Assembly (NCBI GenBank): GCA_003141555.1
Contig: PLMN01000019.1
Coordinates: 124,001 to 188,000, forward strand
Length of the DNA: 64,000 bases
Source of the DNA: Candidatus Aminicenantota bacterium
GTDB lineage: Bacteria; Acidobacteriota; Aminicenantia; Aminicenantales; UBA4085
Direction: 5' to 3'
Shown: positions 16,253 through 29,177 of the stretch, piece after piece
How the letters are laid out: every line of letters begins with the position of its first letter
How positions within the stretch are numbered: position 1 is the stretch's first letter
Position numbers and translations under genes: made by a program
Notes under the pieces: generated by a model
Told to the model about the DNA's origin: nothing
What the model saw: the letters and a program-made list of their open reading frames with translations, nothing else
Database searches by the model: none

Positions 16253-18220
16253 TCAGATGTTGATCCGGATGGGCAGGATCACGGTCGTGATCCCCTTCCA
16301 GCGCAGCTCCTGCTGGACGGCGAAAGCCGTCTCGTTGTGCAGGAGACGGTGGATGATACTCGGCTGCCGGAAGACGGACTGGCCGGCGAACACCGTGGAA
16401 TTCGGGTACTTGACCACGATGCCCTCGATCAGCCGGCTCGCGGTCTGGACGACGTCCGTCCCGAGGTCGTACTGGAAGTCGGCCGGATAGCCGAGCTTGC
16501 GGGCAAGCTCCACGTATTTCCGGAGGGCATCGCCGGCCGCGCCTTCCAGGGAGGACATGGCATCCGAGCCCTTGAATGAGCCGACGTCGACCTCAGCCAC
16601 GGAGACGAAGATGAAATTCTTGTAGAAGCCACGGAAGTTCCGGACGATCGACAGGAACGTGTGGATGCCGAAGCCGTTGTAGCCGTTGACCAGCTGGATG
16701 GCCGTCATTTCCTTGGGATTCAAGGGATTGGTGTTGATCGGGCCCTTGGTCGGGATGGCCAAGAGTAGCTCGTCGAGCTCGCGAACCCCGCCCCGGACCT
16801 TGTTGTAGTGGGACCGGGTCATATAGCAGAGGATGATAACGATCAGGGTGATGACCAGGGTCAGCCACCCGCCGACCGGGAATTTCTCGATCGTGGTGAT
16901 GATCAGGACGGTGAGGCAGACGGTCAACCCCGTGAGGTGAACCGGGAGGTGCTTCTTCCAGTGGGTCTCGGTCTTGCGGTGGGTAATGAAGAACTTCGAC
17001 ATGCCGAATTCGGACAGGGAGAACGTCAGGAAGACGTTGATCGAATACATGACCACGAGCGTGGCGATGGCCCCCCGGGAGTAGATGATGAGGAGGATCG
17101 CCGCGCCGCCCATCATGATGACCCCGTTCTGGATTGTGAAGCGGTCGGACAGGGAGGCGAATCGGTGTGGAAACCAGTAATCGACGGCCATGTTGGCCAT
17201 GACCCGGGGCCCGTCCACGAAGCCCGTCTGGGCCGCGACGAGGAGCAGCGCCCCCTCGGCGAAAATCGTGATCGCAGCCAGGAGGGGACCGAAGCTCCAT
17301 TTCCCGAACAGGTCTCCGGCCAGGACGGCGTTCAGCGTCCGGCCCTCGACGGGGCGGACATTGAAGAGGAGGTAGCAGATCATGATGCCGCCGGCCGTGA
17401 CGGCCAGGGAGGTGGACAGATAGATCATCGTCCTCTTGCCGTTGTGGACCCGGGGCTCCCTCATGACCTGCAGGCCGTTCGAAACGGCCTCGATGCCCGT
17501 GAACGTCCCGCCGCCCATGGAAAACGCCCGGAGGAACAACAGGAGCATCCCCCACGCCCCCAGGGTGACCAGCCCCCCCTTGAACCCGGATTGGACGTTT
17601 CGGACCACGGGCCCGATCTGGGAGACGTGGGAGAAGACGCCATAGCCGATCAGAAGGGCGTGGGTCAGGACGAAGATGATGAAGATCGGGGCCAGGAAGG
17701 TGACCGATTCCCGGATGCCCCGGAGGTTGAGGATGACCAGGAAGATGAGGGCGCAAATTTCAAACGGGATCTTGAATTCCTGGAAATTCAGGGGGAGGAA
17801 GCTGAAAACGGCATCACCGCAGGACACGATCGAGACCGTGATCGTCAGAATGTAGTCCACCAGCAGGGCCGAGCCCGAAACGACGCCCGCCCGCTCCCCC
17901 AGCGTCTTGGTGGCGACGATATATCCGCCGCCGCCGCTCGGGAAATACTCGATAATCCGCGAGTAGGCGTATGAGATGATGAAGACGGTCAGGGCCGTGG
18001 CAAGGGCCAGGAAAACGGCCAGATAGGTGTGCCGCCCCAGCGTGGTGAACGCCTGTTCGGGGCCGTACGAGGCCGAGGACAACCCGTCGGCACCGAGCCC
18101 GATCCAGGCGAGGATCGGGATCAGGGCCAGCTTATGGAATAAAGTCGGGTCTTTGAGGTTCCGGGGCTTCCCGATCAAGGTATGCTTGATCTTGCCGCCC
18201 AGGCTTTCGTCGTCGCTCAT
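16253..18220 (-). CDS. APC-superfamily permease, KimA/KUP-like
   Basis: A 655-residue protein with about 12 membrane helices in residues 25-470 and a soluble C-terminal domain of about 180 residues. The first helix reads GADGLSSASYGPEQAF, very close to the helix-1 signature of KimA-type potassium importers. The FPSGGGGYIVA loop is common to APC permeases. The C-terminal domain has alternating strands and helices compatible with a nucleotide-binding USP-like fold, as in KimA. A proton-coupled K+ importer is my preferred reading; an amino acid permease is the alternative. No obvious operon partner. Confidence 0.75.
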   Translation of the reverse strand: MSDDESLGGKIKHTLIGKPRNLKDPTLFHKLALIPILAWIGLGADGLSSASYGPEQAFTTLGRHTYLAVFLALATALTVFIISYAYSRIIEYFPSGGGGYIVATKTLGERAGVVSGSALLVDYILTITVSIVSCGDAVFSFLPLNFQEFKIPFEICALIFLVILNLRGIRESVTFLAPIFIIFVLTHALLIGYGVFSHVSQIGPVVRNVQSGFKGGLVTLGAWGMLLLFLRAFSMGGGTFTGIEAVSNGLQVMREPRVHNGKRTMIYLSTSLAVTAGGIMICYLLFNVRPVEGRTLNAVLAGDLFGKWSFGPLLAAITIFAEGALLLVAAQTGFVDGPRVMANMAVDYWFPHRFASLSDRFTIQNGVIMMGGAAILLIIYSRGAIATLVVMYSINVFLTFSLSEFGMSKFFITHRKTETHWKKHLPVHLTGLTVCLTVLIITTIEKFPVGGWLTLVITLIVIILCYMTRSHYNKVRGGVRELDELLLAIPTKGPINTNPLNPKEMTAIQLVNGYNGFGIHTFLSIVRNFRGFYKNFIFVSVAEVDVGSFKGSDAMSSLEGAAGDALRKYVELARKLGYPADFQYDLGTDVVQTASRLIEGIVVKYPNSTVFAGQSVFRQPSIIHRLLHNETAFAVQQELRWKGITTVILPIRINI

Positions 18221-18396
18221 GGCCTGTCTTTTCTATCCTTCGGTTCGCGCCGCCCGCCCGGTAAAATTCATCCTCGGGCTGTCTTTCAGGGAGGAGGAAC
18301 GCGCCTTCCTCGGACTATCTTAACCCTTTTTAAAAACAATATGTTACCAGAAAACATCCGCAAAAAACAAGTCCGCGGGCTCCCGCATTTTCCCTC

Positions 18397-19482
18397 CTAG
18401 AAAATGAACAGGATGACGTAATAAATCGCCATGACGGCCAGGCCGATGGGGATCCCGACCCGGGCCCAGTCCTTCATCCGGATCTTCATCCGGCCCGCGG
18501 CCACGATATTGGGGATGTTGCCGGGGATGAGCATCCCCCCCGCGATCGAAAGCCCCATGACGATGCCCACGATCTGGGGAAGCGCGAGAGACGGACCGAT
18601 CTCGATCGCGGTCAGAGTGGCGTTGTCCAGGAAGGCGGAGGCCGAATTGAGCCAAAAAAGGGCTCCGGCCGGAATCCCGGCGAAATACCAGACGATCAGG
18701 GGCTTGAAACCCTCCCCGAGCAGGACCAGGGCCGCTATGAAGATGAAGACTTTGACGGCTCTCAGGATGACGGTCCCCAAGGTTTCGGCGTATTCCACCG
18801 GATGCTCGTGCCCCGAAACAGAAATCGTCGGGCCGAGCTTCACGGCGATCAGGAAGGCCAGGCCGAGCACGCCCGGAACGAGATAGCCCCCGAGGTGGCG
18901 GAGGGGAAAGAAAAACCCCGCCTGGTAGGGGGACCCGGACAGCTTGGATACCAGGATCGTCGACAACGGCTCCCCGAGCGGCGTCAGGCAGGCGCCGAGT
19001 CCCGCGGCGAAGCAGGCGGCCACGATGAGGCGGACCTTGTCCGCCTTGGCCATGGGCAGGCCGGCGATGATCTCGGACAGGAGGCAGGCGGTCAGGATGA
19101 CGGAGATGACGCTCGACAGCAGGCCGAAGAGGGCGATCAGGGCGAAGATGAACACTCTCGGGCCCAAAACGCCGACGAGCCGCAGCACGGCCTTGCAAAA
19201 CGGCCCGTTGAAATAGAAGATCAGGATCCCGACCCCGAGCACGACCTGGAAGATCCCCAACGGGAGCGCTCCGATCATGACCGGAGCCTTCAGGGCCTCG
19301 AGGACGAGGGGCCAGCTCCACAGGCCGGAGACAGTCACGGCAGCCGCTCCCAGGATCAGAAAGAAAAGTTCCAGGTTTTCCTCGACCTTGCGGGACAGGA
19401 GGGGCAAGGTGAGGGCCAAAGCCCCGATCGCGGCCAGGCCCGCGACGATGGGCGCGACCGGAAGAGCGGGAATGGACGTCAC
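18397..19482 (-). CDS. DUF1646-family membrane protein (predicted cation transporter)
   Basis: A 361-residue polytopic protein with about ten hydrophobic helices. Two polar re-entrant-type motifs are visible: AAGLGACLTPLGEPLST near the middle and SASAFLDNATLTAIEIGP near the end. This internal arrangement is that of the ion-transporter superfamily containing NhaD and ArsB, and the sequence resembles the DUF1646 family. The substrate is unknown; a Na+ or other cation is the usual guess. The 176 bp upstream of the permease, between the two genes, hold only A/T-rich sequence with weak promoter-like matches. Confidence 0.75.
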   Translation of the reverse strand: MTSIPALPVAPIVAGLAAIGALALTLPLLSRKVEENLELFFLILGAAAVTVSGLWSWPLVLEALKAPVMIGALPLGIFQVVLGVGILIFYFNGPFCKAVLRLVGVLGPRVFIFALIALFGLLSSVISVILTACLLSEIIAGLPMAKADKVRLIVAACFAAGLGACLTPLGEPLSTILVSKLSGSPYQAGFFFPLRHLGGYLVPGVLGLAFLIAVKLGPTISVSGHEHPVEYAETLGTVILRAVKVFIFIAALVLLGEGFKPLIVWYFAGIPAGALFWLNSASAFLDNATLTAIEIGPSLALPQIVGIVMGLSIAGGMLIPGNIPNIVAAGRMKIRMKDWARVGIPIGLAVMAIYYVILFIF

Positions 19483-19593
19483 GGCTATGGCTTTCGTCTC
19501 CGGCGACCGGCATCCCCGGCCGCCCCCCCGGATATATCATGATCCGGGAGGCCGTTCAACCGTCGCCATCCCTAGAGAATCTATAGACTATAT

Positions 19594-19622
19594 TTGAAAT
19601 TCCCGCACGGCTGGGGTAAGAT
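19594..19622 (+). promoter_or_regulatory. Promoter of the Rrf2 regulator gene
   Basis: TTGAAA (19594-19599) and TAAGAT (19617-19622) are 17 bp apart. An A/T-rich tract just upstream holds the palindrome TCTATAGA (19580-19587), a conceivable operator half-site. Confidence 0.6.
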
Positions 19623-19667
19623 ACGGCCGGACCCGGAGACGTCCCGGAACACGAAAAGGACAAACGC

Positions 19668-20123
19668 ATGAAAAGGATCACGACAAAGGGTCATTACGGC
19701 CTGCGCCTGATGGTCCAACTGGCCCGCCAATACCAGGAAGGAAAGACTTCGGTTCCGATCAAGGCGATCGCCCGGGACGAAGGCCTGTCGATGCAATACC
19801 TCCAGCAGATGACGATCCCCCTCCAGATCCATAACCTCATCAAGAGCACGCGCGGCCCCCGGGGCGGACACACCCTGACCCGGAAGCCGTCCGAGATCCG
19901 GCTGTGCGAGATCTTGAACGCCCTCGAGGGGACGTGCGGCCTGGTGGAATGCGTGGACGATGCCGCGTTCTGCGATCAGATCGATGATTGCGGCCTCTTC
20001 GAAATCTGGAAAGGCGCCTCGGACATCCTCGAGAACTATTTCAACCGGCACACCCTCCAGGACGTCCTGGACATCGGCGACCGAAAGATCGCCTCCGCCG
20101 GGAAAAAAGCCAAGGCCGGCTGA
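19668..20123 (+). CDS. Rrf2-family transcriptional regulator with three-cysteine cluster
   Basis: A 151-residue winged-helix regulator. The N-terminal helix-turn-helix reads HYGLRLMVQLAR to IKAIARDEGLSMQYLQQ, and the wing is RGPRGGHTLTRKPSEI. Cys95, Cys102 and Cys108 (spacing x6 and x5) match the Fe-S ligand pattern of IscR and its relatives (x5, x5), so it probably senses Fe-S status, redox or NO. It is transcribed toward the AOR gene 129 bp downstream, which makes AOR a candidate target. It does not look like an isc operon regulator because no isc genes are nearby. Confidence 0.85.
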   Translation: MKRITTKGHYGLRLMVQLARQYQEGKTSVPIKAIARDEGLSMQYLQQMTIPLQIHNLIKSTRGPRGGHTLTRKPSEIRLCEILNALEGTCGLVECVDDAAFCDQIDDCGLFEIWKGASDILENYFNRHTLQDVLDIGDRKIASAGKKAKAG

Positions 20124-20174
20124 CCGTTCGGCCTTTCCGCCGTCCCGTCTCTCCCTCGCCCCGGCCGCCGTCGA

Positions 20175-20203
20175 TTGACTGACAATGGCCCCTATGGTAT
20201 CAG
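20175..20203 (+). promoter_or_regulatory. Possible promoter of the AOR operon
   Basis: TTGACT (20175-20180) and TATCAG (20198-20203) are separated by 17 bp. The AOR start lies 48 bp downstream and has a GAGGAGG ribosome-binding site. Confidence 0.55.
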
Positions 20204-20251
20204 TATAGAGTTATCGTACCGTTCGCCCAAGCAATCCGAGGAGGACGTCTT

Positions 20252-22087
20252 ATGTACGGCTGGACCGGCAATATTCTCCGCATCAACCTGACCACGGGAG
20301 CGGTCAAGAAGGAGACGTATACCGAGGAATTCGCCCGGACCTGGGTGGGCGGCCGCGGCTTCGCGGTCAAGATCCTCTACGACGAGCTCAAGCCCGGCAT
20401 CGACCCCCTCGGGCCGGACAATAAGTTCATCGTGGCCGTCGGCCCGATCGCCGGCATTCCCGCGCCTAACACGGGCAAGACCGTCGTGGCCGCCAAATCG
20501 CCCCTGACCGGGGGCTACGCCGACGGCAACCTGGGGACGCGGATCACGGAGCATCTCCGCCGGTGCGGCTACGACGTCCTGATCGTCGAGGGCCGGGCGG
20601 CGGTCCCCTCCTATATCGCTCTCGAAAACGACGCCGTCAGCATCCTCCCGGCCGGCGAGATCTGGGGACAGGGAACCTACGCCACCCACGATTGGATCTA
20701 CAAGAAATACGGCCGGGCCGCCGGCGTCCTGTCGATCGGCCAGGCCGGCGAAACACTGTCGCTTTTCGCCGTGGTCCGCAGCCTGGAGGGCCGGGCGGGC
20801 GGACGGCCGGGCATGGGCGCGGTCATGGGCTCGAAGAACCTGAAGGCCATTGTCGCCAAGGGAAACAAGCCCATCCCCCAGGCCGACCCCCAGGGCATGA
20901 AGGCCCTGGGCGCCAGCGACCTGAAGAAGGTCGGCGAAATGGACAAGAAATCGGGCTGGTCGAAGCAGAGCACGAACGGCGTCCTCGCCTGGTGCAACGA
21001 AGTGGCCGCCCTTCCCGTCCGGAACATGCGCCGGACGCACCATCCCGATGCCTGGAAGGTCGACGGCGAGCGCCTGAACAACGCCCGCGTCGCGACCTAC
21101 GGCTGTCCGAACTGCACGATGCGCTGCGGCATCACCATCCACGACCACGAAGGCCACGAATCCGAGCTCGACTATGAGAACATCGGCATGCTGGGCCCCA
21201 ACCTGGAGATCTTCGACCTGGACCAGGTCGCCTCCCTCAACTACATGTGCGACGATTACGGCTTCGACACCATCTCGGCCGGCGGGACGCTGGCCTTCTA
21301 CGCCGACGCCATCGACCGGGGCCACACGACGGGCACCTTCGCCTTCGGCGACGCCGAGCGGGCCAAGGAGCTGCTCCGGATGGCCTCGCGGCGGGAGGGC
21401 GTCGGCAATCTGATCGCCCAGGGCTCGCTCCGGATGGCCCGGGCCTTCGGCCATGATTCCGAGAAATACGCCATGCAGGCCAAGGGCCTGGAGTTGGCCG
21501 CCTACAACTGCAAATTCTGCCCGGGCATGGCCCTGGCCTTCGGCACGGCCCCGATCGGCGGCACGCACAAGGAGTCGTGGGTCATCACGTATGAGCTGAA
21601 CCAGACGGCCCGCGACTCCTACGGCCCCGAAAAATCGGCCAAGGTCATCGAGCTCCAGCGCATCCGGGGCGGCCTGTTCGAGATGCTCACGGCCTGCCGC
21701 TTCCCCTGGGTCGAGATCGGCTGGGGCCTCGAGAATTATCCGATTTATTTCAACAAGATCACGGGCCTGAATTGGACGCTGGACGATTTCTGGAAGACGA
21801 GCGACCGGGTCTATGCCCTGATCAAGCTCTTCTGGCTGCGGGAGATGCCGGATATCGACCGACGGTTCGACTATCCGCCCGGCATCTGGTTCGAGCCGTC
21901 AAACGCCGATACCGAGGGCCCGATCGCGGGCAAGTTCCTGGAGCGGGACAAGTACGACGGCCTCCTTCAGCATTTCTACGACCAACGGCAATGGGACCGG
22001 CGGGGCATCCCGACCCGGCGGCTCATCCAAACGCTCGGCTTGGAAGCCGAGGCGGCCGACGCGGAGAAGTACGGCCGGCTGGAGTAA
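20252..22087 (+). CDS. aor: Aldehyde:ferredoxin oxidoreductase (tungsten-pterin)
   Basis: A 611-residue member of the AOR family, which interconverts aldehydes and acids with ferredoxin. The N-terminal domain begins GNILRINLTTG and has the pterin-contacting VGGRGFAVKIL and AKSPLTGGYADGNLG. The [4Fe-4S] ligands are Cys285, Cys288 and Cys292 (CPNCTMRC) plus probably Cys482, close to the 288/291/295/494 pattern of the Pyrococcus enzyme. The DYGFDTISAGG motif lies near residue 335. An ubiquitin-like gene follows after 3 bp, and mobB and thiF homologues are nearby, which supports dedicated cofactor assembly. The aldehyde substrate is not readable. Confidence 0.93.
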   Translation: MYGWTGNILRINLTTGAVKKETYTEEFARTWVGGRGFAVKILYDELKPGIDPLGPDNKFIVAVGPIAGIPAPNTGKTVVAAKSPLTGGYADGNLGTRITEHLRRCGYDVLIVEGRAAVPSYIALENDAVSILPAGEIWGQGTYATHDWIYKKYGRAAGVLSIGQAGETLSLFAVVRSLEGRAGGRPGMGAVMGSKNLKAIVAKGNKPIPQADPQGMKALGASDLKKVGEMDKKSGWSKQSTNGVLAWCNEVAALPVRNMRRTHHPDAWKVDGERLNNARVATYGCPNCTMRCGITIHDHEGHESELDYENIGMLGPNLEIFDLDQVASLNYMCDDYGFDTISAGGTLAFYADAIDRGHTTGTFAFGDAERAKELLRMASRREGVGNLIAQGSLRMARAFGHDSEKYAMQAKGLELAAYNCKFCPGMALAFGTAPIGGTHKESWVITYELNQTARDSYGPEKSAKVIELQRIRGGLFEMLTACRFPWVEIGWGLENYPIYFNKITGLNWTLDDFWKTSDRVYALIKLFWLREMPDIDRRFDYPPGIWFEPSNADTEGPIAGKFLERDKYDGLLQHFYDQRQWDRRGIPTRRLIQTLGLEAEAADAEKYGRLE

Positions 22088-22090
22088 AAC

Positions 22091-22318
22091 ATGACCGTCC
22101 GGGTAAAGCTCATCGGCCCGCTGATGTACGAAACCGGATTCAGCGAGAAGGACCTCGACGTGCCTGCGGCCACGACGGTCGAAGCGCTCCTCGATCTGAT
22201 CGCCGTCCCGCGCCAGCGGCCGAAGATCGTGACGCGCAACGGCCGGGCCGTCGCGCCCGAGGAACATCTCTCCGACGGCGACAAGATCGCGGTCTCCCCC
22301 ATCTACTCGGGGGGATAA
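22091..22318 (+). CDS. MoaD/ThiS-family sulfur carrier
   Basis: A 75-residue beta-grasp protein ending in the required Gly-Gly (IYSGG). The family segment SDGDKIAVSPIYSGG is intact. It is likely to carry sulfur as a C-terminal thiocarboxylate for the dithiolene of the pterin cofactor. It starts 3 bp after the AOR stop, so it is probably a cofactor-assembly partner of AOR rather than a thiamine protein. The ThiF-like E1 enzyme needed to activate it lies 2.7 kb downstream on the opposite strand. Confidence 0.85.
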   Translation: MTVRVKLIGPLMYETGFSEKDLDVPAATTVEALLDLIAVPRQRPKIVTRNGRAVAPEEHLSDGDKIAVSPIYSGG

Positions 22319-22343
22319 AGACTCCGTCGGGAAAAGCCCCGCC

Positions 22344-23963
22344 ATGACCGACGACGCCGTTTGCCCGGTCCTCATCGGCGGCCGATGGCGTCCCGCCCGG
22401 AATCCCCGTCGATTCTTCCGGGCTGTCGACCCCTCGACCGGGATGGAAACCGCGGGGCTCTATCCCGTCTCGGATGCCTCCGACGTCGAAGAGGCCCTGG
22501 CCGCGGGAAGCGCCGCTGCGCCCGGCATGGCCGAGGCGGGCCCCGAAGCCCCGGCCGATTTCCTGGACGCATATGCGGACGGAATTGCCGCGCGAGCCGG
22601 CGAGATCGTCGCGGCGGCCCATCGCGAGACCGGTCTCCCCGAAGCGCCGAGGCTGCGGGATGTGGAGCTCCCCCGGACGATCGATCAGCTCCACCAAGCC
22701 GCGCACGCGGCGCGCGACCGCTCCTGGTGCCGGGCGACGATCGATACCAAAGCCGGCCTGCGGTCCCGGTACGAGCCCTTGGGCGGACCGGTCGCGGTCT
22801 TTGGCCCGAACAATTTCCCCCTGGCCTACAACTCCGTCGCCGGGACGGATTTCGTCTCTGCGATCGCCGCGGGAAACCCGGTTATCGCCAAGGCCCACCC
22901 TTGCCATCCGGCCGTGACCCGAATCCTGGCCGAAACTGCGTTCGCCTGCCTGGAAAGAAGCAGGCTCCCTCGGGCGGCCGTTCAGCTTCTATACCACCTT
23001 CCGCCGGACGTCGGGCTCGCTCTCGTGGCTGATCGCCGGCTCGGCGCTTCGGCCTTCACCGGAAGCCGCCCCGGGGGATTGAGGCTGAAGGAAGCCGCGG
23101 ACAAGGCCGGCCGGCCGATCTATCTCGAGATGTCGAGCGTCAATCCCGTGTTCCTGCTCCCCGGGGCGCTGCGCGAGCGGGGCGAGAAGATCGCGGCCGA
23201 GATGTTCGGCTCGTGCACGGCCGGGGCGGGGCAGTTCTGCACCAAGCCCGGCCTGATCGTCCTTGTGGAAGACGAGGCCGGCCGCCGCTTTTTCGACCTC
23301 ATCCAGGCCGCCTTCGCCGGTGCGCCGGCCCAGGTGCTTCTGGGCGAATCCGTGCTCTCCGGCATCCGCGCCGCGCTCGAGGCCATGACGGCGGCCGGGG
23401 CGGACATCGTCGCGGGCGGGCGCGCGCCGTCGGGGAGCGGCTTCCGTTTCGAAAACACGCTCCTCCGGGCATCGGGCGACGCCTTCCTCCGTTGCCCCAG
23501 GCCGCTCCAACAGGAAGCGTTCGGCCCCGTCTCCCTCGCCGTCCTCGTCCGGGACGGCGGGCAGATGGCCGCCGTCGCGGCGGCGCTCGACGGGAACCTG
23601 ACGACGGCCATCTTCAGCCATTCGGGCGCGGACGACGAGAGCCTCTATGGCGAGCTCGCGCCCATCCTCCTGACCCGGTGCGGCCGCTTCCTCAACGACA
23701 ACGTGCCGACCGGCGTCCTCGTCTCGCCGGCGATGGTCCACGGCGGCCCCTATCCGGCGGCGGGCCACCCGGGATTCACGGCCGTGGGCTTCCCCGCGGC
23801 GATGGTCCGTTTCGCCGCCCTCCGCTCCTACGACCGCGTCCGGGCCCATCGGCTCCCGCCCGAGCTCCGGGACGAGAATCCGACGGGGACGATGTGGCGC
23901 TGGATCGACGGCGAGATGACGCGCGGGGACGCGGCCGGGGCAGCCCAAAAGTCTATGCGCTGA
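22344..23963 (+). CDS. NAD(P)-dependent aldehyde dehydrogenase (2-oxoglutarate-semialdehyde type)
   Basis: A 539-residue ALDH. The nucleotide-binding segment is VFGPNNFPLAYNSVAGTD, the general base lies in YLEMSS, and the nucleophile is Cys299 in GAGQFCTKPG. The longer N-terminus, the GPNNFPLA motif and the FNDNVPTGV-type C-terminal stretch (LNDNVPTGV) match the subgroup that oxidises 2,5-dioxovalerate in sugar-acid pathways. It begins 25 bp after the MoaD-like gene, so it is probably cotranscribed with AOR. It and AOR would give two electron-acceptor routes for aldehyde oxidation. The end overlaps the convergent aminotransferase by 11 bp. Confidence 0.85.
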   Translation: MTDDAVCPVLIGGRWRPARNPRRFFRAVDPSTGMETAGLYPVSDASDVEEALAAGSAAAPGMAEAGPEAPADFLDAYADGIAARAGEIVAAAHRETGLPEAPRLRDVELPRTIDQLHQAAHAARDRSWCRATIDTKAGLRSRYEPLGGPVAVFGPNNFPLAYNSVAGTDFVSAIAAGNPVIAKAHPCHPAVTRILAETAFACLERSRLPRAAVQLLYHLPPDVGLALVADRRLGASAFTGSRPGGLRLKEAADKAGRPIYLEMSSVNPVFLLPGALRERGEKIAAEMFGSCTAGAGQFCTKPGLIVLVEDEAGRRFFDLIQAAFAGAPAQVLLGESVLSGIRAALEAMTAAGADIVAGGRAPSGSGFRFENTLLRASGDAFLRCPRPLQQEAFGPVSLAVLVRDGGQMAAVAAALDGNLTTAIFSHSGADDESLYGELAPILLTRCGRFLNDNVPTGVLVSPAMVHGGPYPAAGHPGFTAVGFPAAMVRFAALRSYDRVRAHRLPPELRDENPTGTMWRWIDGEMTRGDAAGAAQKSMR

Positions 23964-25059
23964 GATATTCCCCGAACCGGGCCATAGCTTTCCCGAAATT
24001 CTTCCGTCCGAGCCCGATCCGGAAATGGCCGTCCCGGACGTCGAACATGCGGCCGGGAATGAGCATGACGCCCTTCCGGTCGAGGACGCCGCGGCAGAGC
24101 CGGTCGACGGATCCGGATCCCCGCCATCGGGGGAACGCCACCGAGCCCGCGCGAGGGGCGATCCAGTCGAACAGCCGGCGGCGCGCGCCGAAAAATCGCT
24201 CGGCGAGAGTCAGGTTCCTTCGGAGGATCCCCCGGTTGCGCCGCAGGATCCTCTCCAGATTCTGAAGGGCGATGATCGCCAGGATTTCGGAGGGCGCGCT
24301 GCTGCAGATGGTCGTGTAGTCCTTCATGGCCAGCCAGCGGCCGGCCAAGGCGGTATCTTGGGCCGCGAGCCATCCGATCCTGAGCCCGGGCAAAGCGAAG
24401 GCCTTGGACAGGCCCGAAAGCGAAATCCCCTTTTCGTAGAGGTCGCAGACGGCGGGGCGGCGCGCGGCAGGATCCCATTCTAGGAGCCGGTACATCTCGT
24501 CCGAGAAGAGGATCAGGCCGCGCTCCCGGGCGAAATCGACAACGGCCTCGAGCTCGGCGGGCGAAAGGACGGCTCCGGTCGGATTGTTGGGGAAATTGAT
24601 CACGACCATCCGCGTCCGCCGATTCGCGAGGCGCTTCAGCCGATCGAAATCGAGCCGCCAGCCGCGGGGTCCGGGCTCGAGCCGCCAGGCCGACACGCGG
24701 CAGCCCTTCGAGCGGGCGATCTCGGTCAGGGATTGATAAGTGGGGGTCAGGGCGATCACGTGGTCCCCGGGCTCGAGCAGCGAATGCATGGCCACGAAGA
24801 TCGCCTCTTCGGGGGCGGCCACGACGATACCCTCGGGGGAAACGCGCTCGTAGAGCCCCGCGATTTCGGACCGGAGCCCGGCATGTCCCGGCGACTCGGT
24901 GTAGCCCAGCTTCAGTCCCCGCCAGAGGGAGCGGCTTCCGGACGAGGCCATGTCTAAAAGCTCAGCCATGGTCAGACCTTCACAGTCCGAGGCGCAGAGG
25001 ACATATTCGGCCTTGAACTCAATGGCCGCGAAATAGCGTTCCAGCTTGAACGGTCTCAT
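23953..25059 (-). CDS. Class I/II aminotransferase (PLP)
   Basis: A 368-residue fold-type I enzyme. It has NFPNNPTGAVLS around residues 155-166, the PLP-contacting FSDEMYRLLEW, and the Schiff-base lysine in SLSGLSKAFALPGLRIGW. The N-terminus begins MRPFKLERYFA. The substrate is unknown. The start overlaps the stop of the ThiF-like gene (ATGA), so it is the last gene of a coupled mobB-thiF-aminotransferase set. This linkage to cofactor genes is unusual. Confidence 0.85.
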   Translation of the reverse strand: MRPFKLERYFAAIEFKAEYVLCASDCEGLTMAELLDMASSGSRSLWRGLKLGYTESPGHAGLRSEIAGLYERVSPEGIVVAAPEEAIFVAMHSLLEPGDHVIALTPTYQSLTEIARSKGCRVSAWRLEPGPRGWRLDFDRLKRLANRRTRMVVINFPNNPTGAVLSPAELEAVVDFARERGLILFSDEMYRLLEWDPAARRPAVCDLYEKGISLSGLSKAFALPGLRIGWLAAQDTALAGRWLAMKDYTTICSSAPSEILAIIALQNLERILRRNRGILRRNLTLAERFFGARRRLFDWIAPRAGSVAFPRWRGSGSVDRLCRGVLDRKGVMLIPGRMFDVRDGHFRIGLGRKNFGKAMARFGEYLSA

Positions 25060-25691
25060 CCGGACCCGGCGTCGACGGCGTGCCGCTTGACGAGCAGCTC
25101 GACGGCCAGATTGGCCTGCATGGCCGCCACGACCGCCACGCGCGGGGCCATGGGCGCGGTGCAGGCATCGCATTCGCTCATCTCGTCACCGCAAATGTAG
25201 AGGCTGCCGAGTTTGCGCTGCCGGAGCCTGGCGTTGCCGCCGAAGCCCGCCAGCCCCGAGGCGGCGATGATCGGCCTTCCCGGCCGGAGCGCCAGCCAGG
25301 CGTCGATCAGCATCTGCTTCTGATCGGCCAGGTCGAACGCCTCGATGAGGAGGTCCGCGGCGCCGAAGATCCGCTCCACGTTGCCCGCATCGACCTTGAC
25401 ATTGTGCATCTCATAGTCGGAAAAGGGATTCATCCGGCGGAGGTTCTCGCGGAGCGCTTCGACCTTGGACCGGCCGACCTGATCGACGAAGTAATACTGA
25501 CGGTTGAGATCGGGGACTTCGAGGACGTCGAAATCGGCGACGATCAGCTTTCCGACGCCGGCCCGAGCGAGCGCGGCGGCGACGTTCGATCCCAGGCCGC
25601 CTGCCCCGGCGATGCCGACCGTGCTCCGATGGAGCGCGGCCAACACGGCGAGGTCGCGCTTCAGGAAGAATTCCTTCTCGAAATCGGTCAT
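25056..25691 (-). CDS. ThiF/MoeB-family sulfur-carrier adenylyltransferase
   Basis: A 211-residue E1-like protein. The nucleotide-binding start is GIAGAGGLGSNVAAALARAG. DFDVLEVPDLNRQYYF supplies the family DxD/N-R motif that contacts ATP and magnesium. A conserved-type C-terminal segment SECDACTAPM carries cysteines. The length matches the short ThiF family 2 rather than MoeB with its rhodanese tail. It should adenylate the Gly-Gly end of a MoaD/ThiS carrier; the only carrier gene in the window is next to AOR. ATGA overlaps occur at both ends, with mobB upstream and the aminotransferase downstream. Confidence 0.87.
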   Translation of the reverse strand: MTDFEKEFFLKRDLAVLAALHRSTVGIAGAGGLGSNVAAALARAGVGKLIVADFDVLEVPDLNRQYYFVDQVGRSKVEALRENLRRMNPFSDYEMHNVKVDAGNVERIFGAADLLIEAFDLADQKQMLIDAWLALRPGRPIIAASGLAGFGGNARLRQRKLGSLYICGDEMSECDACTAPMAPRVAVVAAMQANLAVELLVKRHAVDAGSG

Positions 25692-26212
25692 GATCTCCCG
25701 CCGCTTCCCGGTCGGGCTTTCGGGCCCGTGACGATCGCGCCGGCCAGCCAGTCGGCCAGCTCCTTCACCTGGTCAGGCGAGAAGACCGGGACGCCGGCAT
25801 CCAGGGGGCGGTCGGAGACGATCGCCTCCAGCTCCCCGGGTGCGGTCTCGATGTCGCCCGAAATCCCGGCTCTCAAGACTTCGACCTTCCTCAGGGCGAG
25901 CTCGCTTTTCCCCCCCTCGACCAGGACGATGTCGGCCGTTCCGAACTCCCGGCGGATGAGGTCCTCGAGGCCGGCTCCCTCCGCGGCGCGGCGGAGGACG
26001 GCCGTCCGTCCCGGCCCGGCGAGGGCGACGCCGTCCGCTCCGGCGGCCAGGAATTTCGAGGAATCCTTGTCCCCGCCTCCGAAGTCGAACCCATGCCCGC
26101 AGTGCTTGACGACGGACACGCCCAGCCCCCGCCCCTTCAGCTCGGGGACCAGGCGGGCGATCAGGCGCGTCTTGCCGCTTTCGGAGGATCCGACGAAGGC
26201 GATGATTTTCAT
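25688..26212 (-). CDS. mobB: Molybdopterin-guanine dinucleotide biosynthesis protein MobB-like
   Basis: A 174-residue P-loop GTPase beginning MKIIAFVGSSESGKTRL, followed by the MobB-type VVKHCGHGFDF and a VLVEGGKS motif in place of the usual VEG(Y/F)K. MobB binds GTP and helps form dinucleotide forms of Moco or W-co. The short C-terminus has the DQVKELADWL helix. It is the first gene of a coupled leftward trio. A 7-bp hairpin (CTCCCCT/AGGGGAG) lies in its leader at 26219-26235. Confidence 0.88.
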   Translation of the reverse strand: MKIIAFVGSSESGKTRLIARLVPELKGRGLGVSVVKHCGHGFDFGGGDKDSSKFLAAGADGVALAGPGRTAVLRRAAEGAGLEDLIRREFGTADIVLVEGGKSELALRKVEVLRAGISGDIETAPGELEAIVSDRPLDAGVPVFSPDQVKELADWLAGAIVTGPKARPGSGGRS

Positions 26213-26218
26213 GGGAGG

Positions 26219-26235
26219 CTCCCCTCGAAGGGGAG
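26219..26235. other. Leader hairpin upstream of mobB
   Basis: Seven base pairs (CTCCCCT with AGGGGAG) close on a three-base CGA loop immediately upstream of the mobB ribosome-binding region. On the minus strand the stem could mask initiation. It is far too small to be a Moco/Tuco riboswitch, and nothing larger is visible in the 60-bp gap. Confidence 0.4.
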
Positions 26236-26267
26236 TGAAATGTCTATAGCACAGGGCCCGGGGCTTG

Positions 26268-27470
26268 TCAAAAATGCAGGCCGCGGCCGAAAAACACGAT
26301 CCGTCTGTCCCGGATGAGGGGCCAGCCGTTCTTCCAGTCGAACTCCTCGAAGCCGGCCGGCATCGGGTTGACCCGGATGACGCACGCTCCCCGGACGCAA
26401 GCCCCCGCGTTGTGTTCGATCGCCGGATTGAAGTCCCACCCGTCGGCGTACGTCTTAGCCCGCTGCGACCGGTCCGGACGCCCGGGCTTGGACGGATCGC
26501 CGTCGAGGCTCTTCTGGGGCTTGATGAGCCGGAACGGACCTTCGCCCGCAAGCCGACCCGTCCCCTTCTCATAATAAGATCCGTCGAGGGGCTGCCCGTC
26601 CCTCTCGGTGGCCAGGAGCAGCCAGGGGGCGCCGGGAATCTTCCCGCCGTCCCGGACGCCGGGCGGCAGCGTCGACGGATACTTGACGAACGTCCGGGCG
26701 GGATCCTTGATCGCGCGCGGCCCGTCGTAGAAATAGCCTTCGGGAAACGGGCGGGTGACATCGTCCATCGAGTAATCGATGCTGTAGCCGTCGGGGGCAA
26801 AGACGGTGATGCCCTCGGCGCCTTGAAGGTCCACTCCGGCGGCCTGGAGCAGGGCGGCCACTTTCACCCCCGTATACGTCACATAGTCGTCCGTCGGCTC
26901 CTTGGTCGCGTTCATCAGCATGAACTGCCGCTGGACGGGGAGCCGCTTCACGTCGTCCCAGGACAGGGCGATGGACGGCGCGAGGCGCTGCCCCGGGCGG
27001 CTGGACGGGTCGCCCGGATAGCGAAGGGCGGCGATCTCGGCGGCGTTGGAGGCCCCGTCGCCGTCGGAATCCTTTCCGGCGATCGAGGCCAGCGCTTCGA
27101 CGGTCCGCCCCGCGGCCTTGAAGTCCAGCCCGTAGGCGTTCAGGGTGTCGGCGAAGGATTTGGGAACGCCCGTCTTGTAGCGGGCGTTCGGGTATTCGAG
27201 GAGGTGGCAGTAGCTGCAGGGCGAATACTCCCGCTCGGCATCCGTCCCGCGCGGGCCGCCCTTGTGGCAGGCCTGGCAATCGTCGAGCCTCGTGCCGGCC
27301 GCGTTCGGGTAGGCGGCGATGAAGGCTTTCATGTCCGCGTTCTTCTCGTGGCCGACGTAGGCCCGCGACGCCGGAGCGTCCTGGCCGACGGAAGCGAACA
27401 CCGCGACGGTCAGCAGAATGGCAAAGCTCCCCAAAATTCCAAAACAACCGCGCCCGATTTTTTTCTCCAA
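26268..27470 (-). CDS. GEGP-motif diheme protein with molybdopterin-type C-terminal domain
   Basis: A 400-residue exported protein if started at TTG 27470, giving a clear signal peptide (KK n-region, FGILGSFAILLTVAVFA core). No ATG or GTG sits near that point, and the next upstream start lies inside the neighbouring gene. Two heme-c sites, CQACH and CSYCH, lie near residues 70 and 88. An EF-hand-like calcium loop DSDGDGASNAAEI follows. The middle and C-terminal part (VTYTGVKVAALLQAAGV to FAPDGYSIDYS) resembles the molybdopterin-binding fold of sulfite-oxidase relatives. The GEGPFRLI motif names the family. It is the immediate neighbour of mobB. Its catalytic role is not known. Confidence 0.75.
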   Translation of the reverse strand: MEKKIGRGCFGILGSFAILLTVAVFASVGQDAPASRAYVGHEKNADMKAFIAAYPNAAGTRLDDCQACHKGGPRGTDAEREYSPCSYCHLLEYPNARYKTGVPKSFADTLNAYGLDFKAAGRTVEALASIAGKDSDGDGASNAAEIAALRYPGDPSSRPGQRLAPSIALSWDDVKRLPVQRQFMLMNATKEPTDDYVTYTGVKVAALLQAAGVDLQGAEGITVFAPDGYSIDYSMDDVTRPFPEGYFYDGPRAIKDPARTFVKYPSTLPPGVRDGGKIPGAPWLLLATERDGQPLDGSYYEKGTGRLAGEGPFRLIKPQKSLDGDPSKPGRPDRSQRAKTYADGWDFNPAIEHNAGACVRGACVIRVNPMPAGFEEFDWKNGWPLIRDRRIVFFGRGLHF

Positions 27471-27484
27471 AGGTCTTCCGATCC

Positions 27485-28030
27485 TCAGAGCTCGAGCTCG
27501 GGAGCGATCCCTTGCATGGCCGCGAGGGGGATCGAGATGAACTCGTCCAGGCTCAGCCCGAGATGGGCGCACTGCTCGATCTCCTCGCGGCGGGCCCCGC
27601 GGGCGAAGCTCTTTTCCTTATAGCGGCGCTTGACGAAGTCCAGGTCGATCCGGGCCAGCTTTTTCTCCGGGTGCATGAGGGCCGCGGCGATGATCAGCCC
27701 GGTCAGGGGATCGACCGCGAAAATCGCCCAGTCCATGGGGCTTTCGCAGGGGACCTTTCCGGCGTGCGCCCGGACGGCATGGATCACGGCCGGGTCGAAG
27801 CCCTTCTCCCCCAGGATCCGGGCCGTTTCCACGGTGTGCGTTTCCGGGCTCTTCTCCGTCAGCTCGTAGTCCATATCGTGGACGAGGCCGGCCAGGCCCC
27901 AGGGCTCGGGATCGTGGCCGAGCCGCACGGCCAAGGCCTTCATGCAGGCTTCGACGGACAAGCAGTGCTTGACCAGGTTCTTGTTCTTCAGATGCGCCTG
28001 CAGCATCTCCAGCGCTTCTATTCGGGTCAT
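27485..28030 (-). CDS. HD-domain hydrolase-like protein
   Basis: A 181-residue HD-superfamily protein. Metal-ligand motifs are H22 (VKHCLSVE) and HD in GLAGLVHDMDYE, followed by HTVETARILGEKG and the downstream HA (VRAHAG) and D (AVDPLTG). This is the compact form often annotated as an HDIG-type phosphohydrolase. The substrate is unknown. It is separated from the PQQ-type protein upstream by 19 bp and may share its transcript. Confidence 0.8.
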   Translation of the reverse strand: MTRIEALEMLQAHLKNKNLVKHCLSVEACMKALAVRLGHDPEPWGLAGLVHDMDYELTEKSPETHTVETARILGEKGFDPAVIHAVRAHAGKVPCESPMDWAIFAVDPLTGLIIAAALMHPEKKLARIDLDFVKRRYKEKSFARGARREEIEQCAHLGLSLDEFISIPLAAMQGIAPELEL

Positions 28031-28049
28031 GAAAACATCTCCTTTCGTC

Positions 28050-29177
28050 CTATTTTTTTGCGGGGACCGGCGTCTTCGCCGGCGCTCCTATGAAAAAGAC
28101 CATCGTCCCCAGGGCATGGTCGGGATCGTAGAGGTTGATCACGAGCCGGTCTCCCAAGCGGGCGGGACCGGCCCGGAGCTCGCTTCCGGCGTCCTGGGTC
28201 CCGGTCTTGTCTCCATTGTCCGCCTTGAACGCGGCCAGGATCGGCGAGCGCGACGCGGCGACGGCCAGGCCTTCGCCTACCCAGGGGGGAAACGGGCTTT
28301 TCGCGGGAAGCGAATGCCACCAAATCAGGTCTCCGCGACCCCCGTTCAGGCAGAACAGGACACCGTTCGAAACCGTGAAGTACAGCCGGTCGGCGTCCGC
28401 CACGGGGGACGCGGCCAGCGTGCCGCCGAGCCGGAACGTCCAGAGGATCTTCCCGGAAACCGAATCGAGGCAGATCAGGGTCCCATCGGCCCGGCTGGCA
28501 TAGACCCGGCCCCGATCCGCGAAAAGGGGCGCGGCGATCGCCCCCCCGGCATCCCAGGTCCGGAGCCGGCGTCCACTCGCCTCGAGGGTCGAGATCTCCC
28601 CCTCCGCCGTCCCGATCAGGATGTCTCCGGCGACGAGCGCCGGCCCGCCGCGGAGCGTCGTCCCCGGCGTGAACCGCCATTTGTCGAATCCCTGCGAATC
28701 GAAGGCGACGAGATCCACATCGTCGACCGTGACCAAGACGGAGTCTTCCGGACCCCAGGACGCGCCGGCCGTGATCCGGCTCGTGAGGGCGAGCGCCCAG
28801 CGCAACCGGCCGGAGGCGGGATCGAGGAGATAGATCCGGTTCGAAGCGTCGGAGATGAGAAGCCCCTTTCCCCCGAGGGCCGGAGAGCCGAGCAAGGCCG
28901 CCTTGGCGGCGAAGCGCCAGGCGACGGGCGAGGGCCCGGCCGTGAGGGCATAGACGAACCCTTTGTCGGTCCCGAAGAAGATCGAGGCCCCCGAGGTCAC
29001 GGGAACGCCGCGGATTTCCCCGTCGTACGTCAGCCGGAACGCCTCCGTCAGGGGGAACTGGAACACGGGAGTCTTGACTGCCGCCGCGGCCAGGACGCCG
29101 CAGGCCAGAGCGAGACTCCCTTCGACGACCCCGATCCTCCGGACGTTCCTCCGCATGGCTTTCGCACCGCCCATCAT
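28050..29177 (-). CDS. PQQ-like beta-propeller repeat protein, exported
   Basis: A 375-residue protein with a hydrophobic N-terminal signal or anchor (VEGSLALACGVLAAAAV) and about seven propeller blades. Each blade has the Y/F-x-L-D-x-x-S/T-G-x-x-x-W pattern: YLLDPASGRLRWAL, CLDSVSGKILWTF, CLNGGRGDLIWWH. It lacks the C-terminal residues that bind quinone in dehydrogenases, so a structural or scaffolding role, as in BamB-like proteins, is as likely as enzymatic activity. The end is proline/lysine-rich (APAKTPVPAKK). Confidence 0.8.
   Translation of the reverse strand: MMGGAKAMRRNVRRIGVVEGSLALACGVLAAAAVKTPVFQFPLTEAFRLTYDGEIRGVPVTSGASIFFGTDKGFVYALTAGPSPVAWRFAAKAALLGSPALGGKGLLISDASNRIYLLDPASGRLRWALALTSRITAGASWGPEDSVLVTVDDVDLVAFDSQGFDKWRFTPGTTLRGGPALVAGDILIGTAEGEISTLEASGRRLRTWDAGGAIAAPLFADRGRVYASRADGTLICLDSVSGKILWTFRLGGTLAASPVADADRLYFTVSNGVLFCLNGGRGDLIWWHSLPAKSPFPPWVGEGLAVAASRSPILAAFKADNGDKTGTQDAGSELRAGPARLGDRLVINLYDPDHALGTMVFFIGAPAKTPVPAKK

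Follow-up and report, generated by a model that had tools for sequence, protein, structure and literature searches.

Introduction

Genes for MoaD-like sulfur carriers next to genes for aldehyde:ferredoxin oxidoreductases (AOR), often together with MoeB, were reported as tungsten cofactor clusters in 2006 (Iyer, Burroughs and Aravind, PMC1779556). In a 2026 classification of these enzymes the carrier is named WorX, and an adjacent thiF gene is mentioned for one enzyme (Putumbaka et al., PMC13328260). Here we describe a locus of this kind in a stretch of 64,000 nucleotides (the window), which is part of contig 7 in the draft genome of Candidatus Aminicenantota bacterium (GCA_003141555.1; 3.79 Mb, 33 contigs, 97.4% complete). 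It contains an AOR gene, the gene of a MoaD/ThiS-family carrier and, on the opposite strand, the genes of MobB and a ThiF-like E1 enzyme. We propose, with a probability of roughly 0.78, that this block encodes a FOR-type tungsten oxidoreductase and, along with it, the sulfur-carrier step in the synthesis of its cofactor.

Related arrangements have been studied in other organisms. The aorD and aorE genes lie beside the AOR genes in Aromatoleum and are called putative maturation factors (PMC6365974). In Thermococcus kodakarensis, the E1 enzyme TK2117 forms pyrophosphate with the carrier UblB (TK2118), and the FOR activity of strains without UblB or UblC is undetectable in pyruvate medium at low sulfur and is restored by sulfur addition (PMC11323500, where FOR is spelled as formate:ferredoxin oxidoreductase). 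Disruption of moaA, moaC, moaE, moeA, moeB, mogA, or aor was beneficial to Desulfovibrio vulgaris under chlorate (PMC10102598). A preliminary description of the window, made from the sequence alone, assumed that AOR operons with MoaD- and E1-like genes were already known, and the literature bears this out (PMC1779556, PMC13328260, PMC11323500). Our literature searches for Aminicenantes combined with FOR or AOR found no paper.

A Convergent Block around the AOR Gene

The AOR gene (20252..22087, plus strand; 611 aa) encodes a protein with the Pfam domains AFOR_N and AFOR_C. It is followed on the same strand by the carrier gene (22091..22318; 75 aa, C-terminus IYSGG; Pfam ThiS, 35.3 bits with a cut-off of 22.5) and by an aldehyde dehydrogenase (ALDH) gene (22344..23963; 539 aa; Pfam Aldedh, 138 bits), and preceded by the gene of an Rrf2-family regulator (19668..20123, plus strand; 151 aa). 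The minus-strand unit consists of mobB, encoding a GTP-binding cofactor adaptor (25688..26212; 174 aa; Pfam MobB, 100 bits), thiF, encoding an E1 enzyme of ThiF family 2 (25056..25691; 211 aa), and the gene of a class I/II pyridoxal phosphate (PLP) aminotransferase-fold enzyme (23953..25059; 368 aa; Pfam Aminotran_1_2, 147.5 bits). Reading of the DNA shows two ATGA overlaps on this strand, one of the mobB stop with the thiF start (25688..25691) and one of the thiF stop with the aminotransferase start (25056..25059). The two units are convergent, and the 3' ends of the ALDH and aminotransferase genes overlap by 11 bases (23953-23963). In the Pfam search six of the genes score far over the cut-off, and the 75-aa carrier scores clearly over it. 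The seven genes with their strands, the two ATGA overlaps and the two convergent units had all been named in the preliminary description; all are upheld by the Pfam and NCBIfam models and the reading of the DNA, and the convergence of AOR-carrier and ThiF recurs in many relatives, beyond chance.

The recurrence was followed in a set of 51 distinct AOR loci of relatives (AOR identity of at least 60%; near-duplicates above 99.5% merged; the window genome left out). The carrier lies on the AOR strand beside AOR in 48 of them and ends in SGG in all 48. ThiF is opposite AOR in 25 loci. Many contigs end early; among the 35 loci whose downstream sequence reaches 5 kb or more, 20 have ThiF. The ThiF of one merged locus (L004, L030, and L089), located 12 kb away in L089, is not included in these counts. 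MobB is opposite AOR in 19 loci, one of them doubtful (L022, E 8e-4), where the open reading frame (ORF) resembles uridine kinase by eye. ALDH is found in 26 of the 51 loci, MoaC opposite AOR in six, and an HD protein on the opposite strand downstream of AOR in 13. The nucleoside phosphorylase PpnP is encoded opposite AOR and near ThiF in 23 loci (e.g., L005 13813-14094), at the place that the aminotransferase gene takes in the window. In three Elusimicrobia loci (L022, L026, and L027), AOR, the carrier and an opposite ThiF are accompanied by MoaC upstream of AOR; by record titles, the block is therefore present in a second phylum.

Co-occurrence was counted over 142 genomes of the class, apparently Aminicenantia. 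AOR (E 1e-150 or better) is present in 49 and the ThiF clade of the window in 39, both being found in 36 genomes, the window genome included. The clade was cut at 225 bits, a value set after viewing the list; two fragments at contig edges, in G083 and G007, were included manually, whereas G046 (198 bits) was excluded. AOR occurs in 36 of the 39 genomes with the ThiF clade versus 13 of the 103 without it (Fisher p 2.6e-19, uncorrected for kinship). Wherever AOR and ThiF share a contig the two genes are convergent, with ThiF downstream at a gap of 0.5-12.4 kb (26 of 26 pairs, including that of the window). Three genomes have the ThiF clade and no counted AOR: the contig of G078 stops next to ThiF, that of G079 stops inside the ALDH gene, and in G063 ThiF adjoins an AOR paralogue with 27% identity.

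MobB and ThiF as Probable Cofactor Genes

In four genomes of the class MobB and ThiF form one ORF of 374-384 aa (L079 4073-5197; L094 1-1124; L098 1669-2823; L101 3095-4249), which is good evidence that the two proteins share a pathway; a literature search, which listed one paper, on archaeal SAMP1, gave no title about such a fusion. MobB of the window passes the curated cut-off of TIGR00176 (103.8 versus 76.2). In 15 relative loci (e.g., L018 6625-7296) MobB extends into a C-terminal domain of about 60 residues, which is missing from the window protein; the domain resembles PRK14494-type MobB proteins and has no Pfam match. What seemed in relatives to be a small gene of its own between ThiF and MobB is, in 15 of 16 loci, this C-terminal domain of the MobB ORF, and the idea of a new family was dropped; the domain stands apart only in L011 and is an overlapping ORF in L153 and L157.

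The glycine-rich loop, the LNRQ motif, Lys76, and Asp120 of the ThiF-like E1 are invariant in seven aligned E1 enzymes. By the names of the NCBIfam models whose cut-offs it passes (PRK08644, 229 bits versus 159; TIGR02354, 191.5 versus 152.2) the protein would be the ThiF of thiamine biosynthesis. However, the window genome has no match to ThiG in a search that was positive in 14 of 14 controls, 13 of them over the cut-off, and on this absence we ruled the thiamine role out. The only three ThiS-family genes found in the genome are all in AOR loci, and in relatives the neighbours or the fusion partner of this ThiF are cofactor genes. A thiamine function of this E1, as the model names would have it, is thus most improbable.

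Other genes of the pathway are found in two kinds of places. In Saccharicenans (L005), the minus strand carries MoaA, MoaC, MOSC, MogA-type, MobB, and ThiF genes in this order, followed by PpnP, and MoaA, MoaC, MobB, and ThiF are also opposite AOR in L006, L007, L009, L031, and L130. In the window genome, MoeA, MoaA, MoaC, MOSC, and MogA-type genes stand in a row on contig 17 (L144 4893-8478), so that MoaA, MoaC, MogA-type, and MoeA of the molybdopterin system are all at hand. MoaA looks short there, its C-terminal domain scoring 36.8 with a Pfam cut-off of 37.4, and the MogA label comes from PF00994, a model common to MoaB. The preliminary description spoke of a complete-looking, private set of cofactor genes. 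Neither word holds: only the carrier, E1, and MobB of the pathway are present at the locus, MoeA, MoaA, MoaC, MOSC, and MogA are on contig 17, MoaE was not found, and two more carriers and one more E1 lie in other AOR loci of the genome. The MobB-ThiF pair looks as if displaced from the end of a cofactor operon, which in Saccharicenans is still in one piece.

These data suggest the following scheme. A molybdopterin precursor would come from MoaA and MoaC of contig 17. The ThiF-like E1 would adenylate the carrier encoded nearby at its C-terminal Gly-Gly, and the carrier would then take up sulfur and supply it for the dithiolene of molybdopterin. The metal would be inserted by MogA and MoeA, also from contig 17, MobB would act together with E1 in late cofactor handling, and the finished cofactor would go into AOR, which may oxidise a short or C4-C5 semi-aldehyde with ferredoxin as partner. 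What is observed is gene content, synteny, co-occurrence, the MobB-ThiF fusions, and the absent ThiG, from which we infer all biochemical steps.

Proposed Pairing of the E1 Enzyme and the Carrier

The window genome has four AORs, three ThiS-family carriers, and two E1 enzymes, each of the carriers and E1s being located in an AOR locus. On contig 20 the carrier gene comes directly after an AOR gene. On contig 5 it comes after an E1 gene (ThiF model, 246 bits), about 7 kb downstream of an AOR; this locus (L066 195-10041) consists of a second AOR, then large ORFs, E1, and a carrier ending in VAGG. As all carriers and E1s found in the genome are in AOR loci, a cofactor role is supported, yet cross-talk between them is possible. 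A further locus of family f12 (L153 2065-7368) has in a row two AOR-family ORFs, ThiF, and a 66-aa ThiS-family carrier ending in HGG; in this different kind of AOR locus the helper pair is the same.

An alternative explanation, which we regard as unlikely on balance, is that the E1 of the window is a general one for cofactor synthesis in the cell and that the carriers are interchangeable, with no private pairing to the window AOR. The genome has two E1s for three carriers, several carriers of T. kodakarensis contribute to one enzyme (PMC11323500), and ThiF sits among general cofactor genes in Saccharicenans. In contrast, the ThiF clade tracks the window-type AOR across the genomes of the class, and in loci with no ThiF within reach the carrier shows greater divergence (median identity to the window carrier of 51% in 13 loci versus 59% in 25 loci, p 0.0014). 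For AOR the corresponding identities are 71.5% and 72.6% (p 0.04), and both p values are uncorrected for kinship. Four of the 13 loci (L004, L080, L099, and L104) have ThiF on another contig, and their carriers are 56-67% identical to that of the window.

The carrier and E1 might also form a protein-conjugation system, instead of or besides sulfur transfer, as Thermococcus carriers are also conjugated to proteins (PMC11323500). No JAB peptidase or E2-like gene was found among the 15 window proteins scanned, and the conserved neighbours are cofactor genes, which makes conjugation a very improbable function here. The role of the E1 and the carrier as helpers of the AOR cofactor, suggested by the preliminary description, is well supported by comparative evidence and is of a known kind: it accords with the co-occurrence, the convergent synteny, the Saccharicenans operon, the fusions, the absence of ThiG, and the Thermococcus precedent.

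Several observations weigh against the proposed function of the block. The ThiF clade is absent from 13 of the 49 AOR genomes, of which several, namely G020, G021, G028, G043, G046, G054, G098, G099, and G100, are over 90% complete; G046, counted as ThiF-less, has a more distant ThiF elsewhere. Therefore the AOR-ThiF pair is not obligatory. The second E1 and the two other carriers of the window genome could substitute for those of the block. MoaC has no match in 14 of the 49 AOR genomes, some of them over 90% complete. Finally, MoaE is missing from the window genome by Pfam search and, by a small profile, from all but four of the 142 genomes of the class.

Apparent Absence of MoaE

The Pfam model of MoaE matches nothing in the window genome, the same search being positive in 11 of 14 controls; the MoaD-MoaE pair of a canonical molybdopterin synthase is accordingly not found by this model. 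A joined MoaC-MoaE profile, built from three and four sequences, was applied to the 142 draft genomes: its MoaC part matched in 80 and its MoaE part in only four (G094, G095, G096, and G098). Among the AOR genomes, MoaC is present in 35 of 49, and MoaE in one of those 35. The gap itself is not new, since MoaC without MoaE is in print for acetogens (PMC5039349); our data extend it to a case with a compact co-located gene set.

We tentatively suggest, with rather less than even confidence, that, of the Aminicenantia that make molybdopterin for tungsten enzymes, most may use a MoaD/WorX carrier and a ThiF-like E1, the latter fused to MobB in some species, in the absence of MoaE. If so, sulfur insertion would fall to a still unknown protein or to the carrier together with a partner other than MoaE, and the block of MoaA-MoaC-MOSC-MogA-MobB-ThiF and AOR-carrier would represent most of a MoaE-free pathway. 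The C-terminal domain of MobB, MOSC, PpnP, and the HD protein would then be candidates for the missing partner, and this short list of co-located genes makes the question of a MoaE replacement testable.

The Aminotransferase and Rrf2 Genes

The aminotransferase gene was one of two novelties in the preliminary description, where its link to AOR was taken as a possible sign of an aldehyde arising from an amino acid. The protein scores 276.8 bits with the PRK07324 model, below the cut-off of 476 for that family; among solved structures, 3op7 and the PLP enzyme 8fft are nearest to it. The idea that it belongs to the system and starts a route from an amino acid to an aldehyde for AOR and ALDH draws on the ATGA overlap with thiF, on the possible activity of FOR with glutarate semialdehyde (PMC12096430), and on the best, far sub-threshold models of ALDH, which are for amino- and oxo-aldehydes and make an amino-acid source conceivable. 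However, of the 18 genomes of the class with a homologue (E 1e-75 or better), 15 are in family f12, where no AOR match of the 49 is found, and neither AOR nor the carrier, E1, or MobB is near the aminotransferase gene in 13 f12 loci of 4.7-14 kb. Aminotransferase and AOR share a genome only in the window genome, G002, and G006. In the latter two the aminotransferase gene is on another contig with none of the genes of the block near it (in G006 only 1.2 kb of contig is left on one side), and the ALDH-ThiF junction, which is covered in G002 (L072), holds PpnP.

The AOR loci of relatives were searched for the aminotransferase and Rrf2 genes with tblastn over loci L001-L131. The only aminotransferase match there, in L025, is partial (30%) and lies at a distance of about 4 kb, and no decarboxylase was identified among the locus proteins scanned. 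The thiF-aminotransferase pair, for which the preliminary description proposed a gene-neighbourhood comparison, is thus seen in the window only. The same description set conservation of the minus-strand trio near AOR as its test: MobB-ThiF is conserved, and the aminotransferase is not. On synteny and co-occurrence we ruled the aminotransferase out as a component of the system, and the amino-acid route must be considered improbable. A literature search found no paper that links ThiF, MoaD, an aminotransferase, and AOR together. A tempting story about the aminotransferase would rest on one genome.

The Rrf2-family regulator is clearly assigned (Pfam Rrf2, 105 bits; TIGR00738, 100.9 with a cut-off of 73.3) and scores under the cut-offs of the IscR, CymR, NsrR, and RirA models. 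At E 1e-3 the search of loci L001-L131 recovered its own copy only, so the gene is, as far as these loci go, local to the window genome; the Fe-S-type regulator proposed as a novelty of the system is matched in no relative locus searched. By sequence comparison, the aminotransferase and Rrf2 genes are judged to be local neighbours, perhaps co-transcribed, outside the conserved system.

An Rfam scan of window positions 18000-28500 revealed no molybdenum-cofactor RNA motif. Its two matches are both under the gathering scores and of unrelated kinds, and riboswitch control of the locus was dropped from consideration. Sigma-70-like sites at 19594-19622, before the Rrf2 gene, and at 24979-25007 (two seen with 0.7 expected) were not used as evidence.

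Flanking genes complete the picture. A DUF1646 membrane protein (18400-19482; 378 bits) is encoded divergently from the Rrf2 gene. On the other side, a GEGP-motif diheme protein (26268-27572; NF041762, 447 bits) lies between the MobB gene and that of an HD-domain protein (27485..28030, minus strand; Pfam HD), which comes after the MobB-ThiF unit in some relatives. In L081 MobB directly adjoins the HD gene, with no diheme protein between them.

The Oxidoreductase and Its Possible Substrate

The top solved relative of the window AOR is the FOR of Pyrococcus furiosus (1b25, 607 bits over residues 1-610), followed by 1aor with 321 bits. Both AFOR domains together cover the full length of the protein, and among solved relatives it is nearer to FOR than to AOR; by sequence it is assigned as a FOR-type tungsten oxidoreductase. 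A CxxCxxxC motif and a distal Cys, presumably the Fe-S cluster ligands, are aligned with those of the P. furiosus FOR. The best-matching named records are from Candidatus Aminicenantes and Candidatus Saccharicenans.

The top NCBIfam models of the neighbouring ALDH are aminobutyraldehyde dehydrogenase (95.8 bits, cut-off 615) and 2,5-dioxovalerate dehydrogenase (91.1, cut-off 750). As these scores are far sub-threshold, the models do not fix its substrate. According to a 2025 review, glutaric dialdehyde is the compound for which the Km of FOR is lowest, glutarate is bound in the FOR crystal, and glutaric semialdehyde may be a substrate as well (PMC12096430). Because of these data and the names of the best ALDH models, a C4-C5 semialdehyde may be predicted as the AOR substrate, a reasonable guess, no more. 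ALDH may give a second, NAD(P)-linked oxidation route beside AOR.

Comparison with Known Systems

The window AOR resembles the P. furiosus FOR (1b25, 1b4n) in the 607-bit match over the whole length and in the aligned Fe-S cysteines. It differs in having a bacterial host and an operon with a carrier and ALDH.

The locus shares with the AOR-MoaD-MoeB clusters a carrier strictly beside AOR and the frequent presence of an E1, which were proposed to supply molybdopterin to AOR (PMC1779556). In contrast to those clusters, its E1 is of ThiF family 2 and is encoded on the opposite strand with MobB, to which it is fused in relatives. Moreover, some of the clusters list MoaE (PMC1779556), which the Pfam search did not find in the window genome; D. 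vulgaris likewise differs from the window genome in having moaE (PMC10102598).

Closer in composition is the Class I WOR with worX and thiF, a single-subunit WOR adjoined by a ThiS-like gene and thiF, thought to be genes of pterin synthesis (PMC13328260). The window has the same elements, a ThiS-like carrier that ends in GG and adjoins AOR and a ThiF-type E1 nearby on the opposite strand. The example given in the cited text is clade 87 from Cetobacterium, whereas the window enzyme is of FOR type and its MobB-ThiF unit is convergent.

The T. kodakarensis system likewise combines an E1 with carriers ending in GG, which are needed there for FOR activity at low sulfur (PMC11323500). UblB and its E1 form a tandem operon in that organism and UblC is beside AOR, whereas the carrier and E1 of the window are in convergent units. 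Overall, the locus adds a bacterial, FOR-type case to the known clusters of AOR, carrier, and E1, and in it an E1 with a thiamine name belongs to a tungsten/molybdenum cofactor locus, being fused to MobB in relatives.

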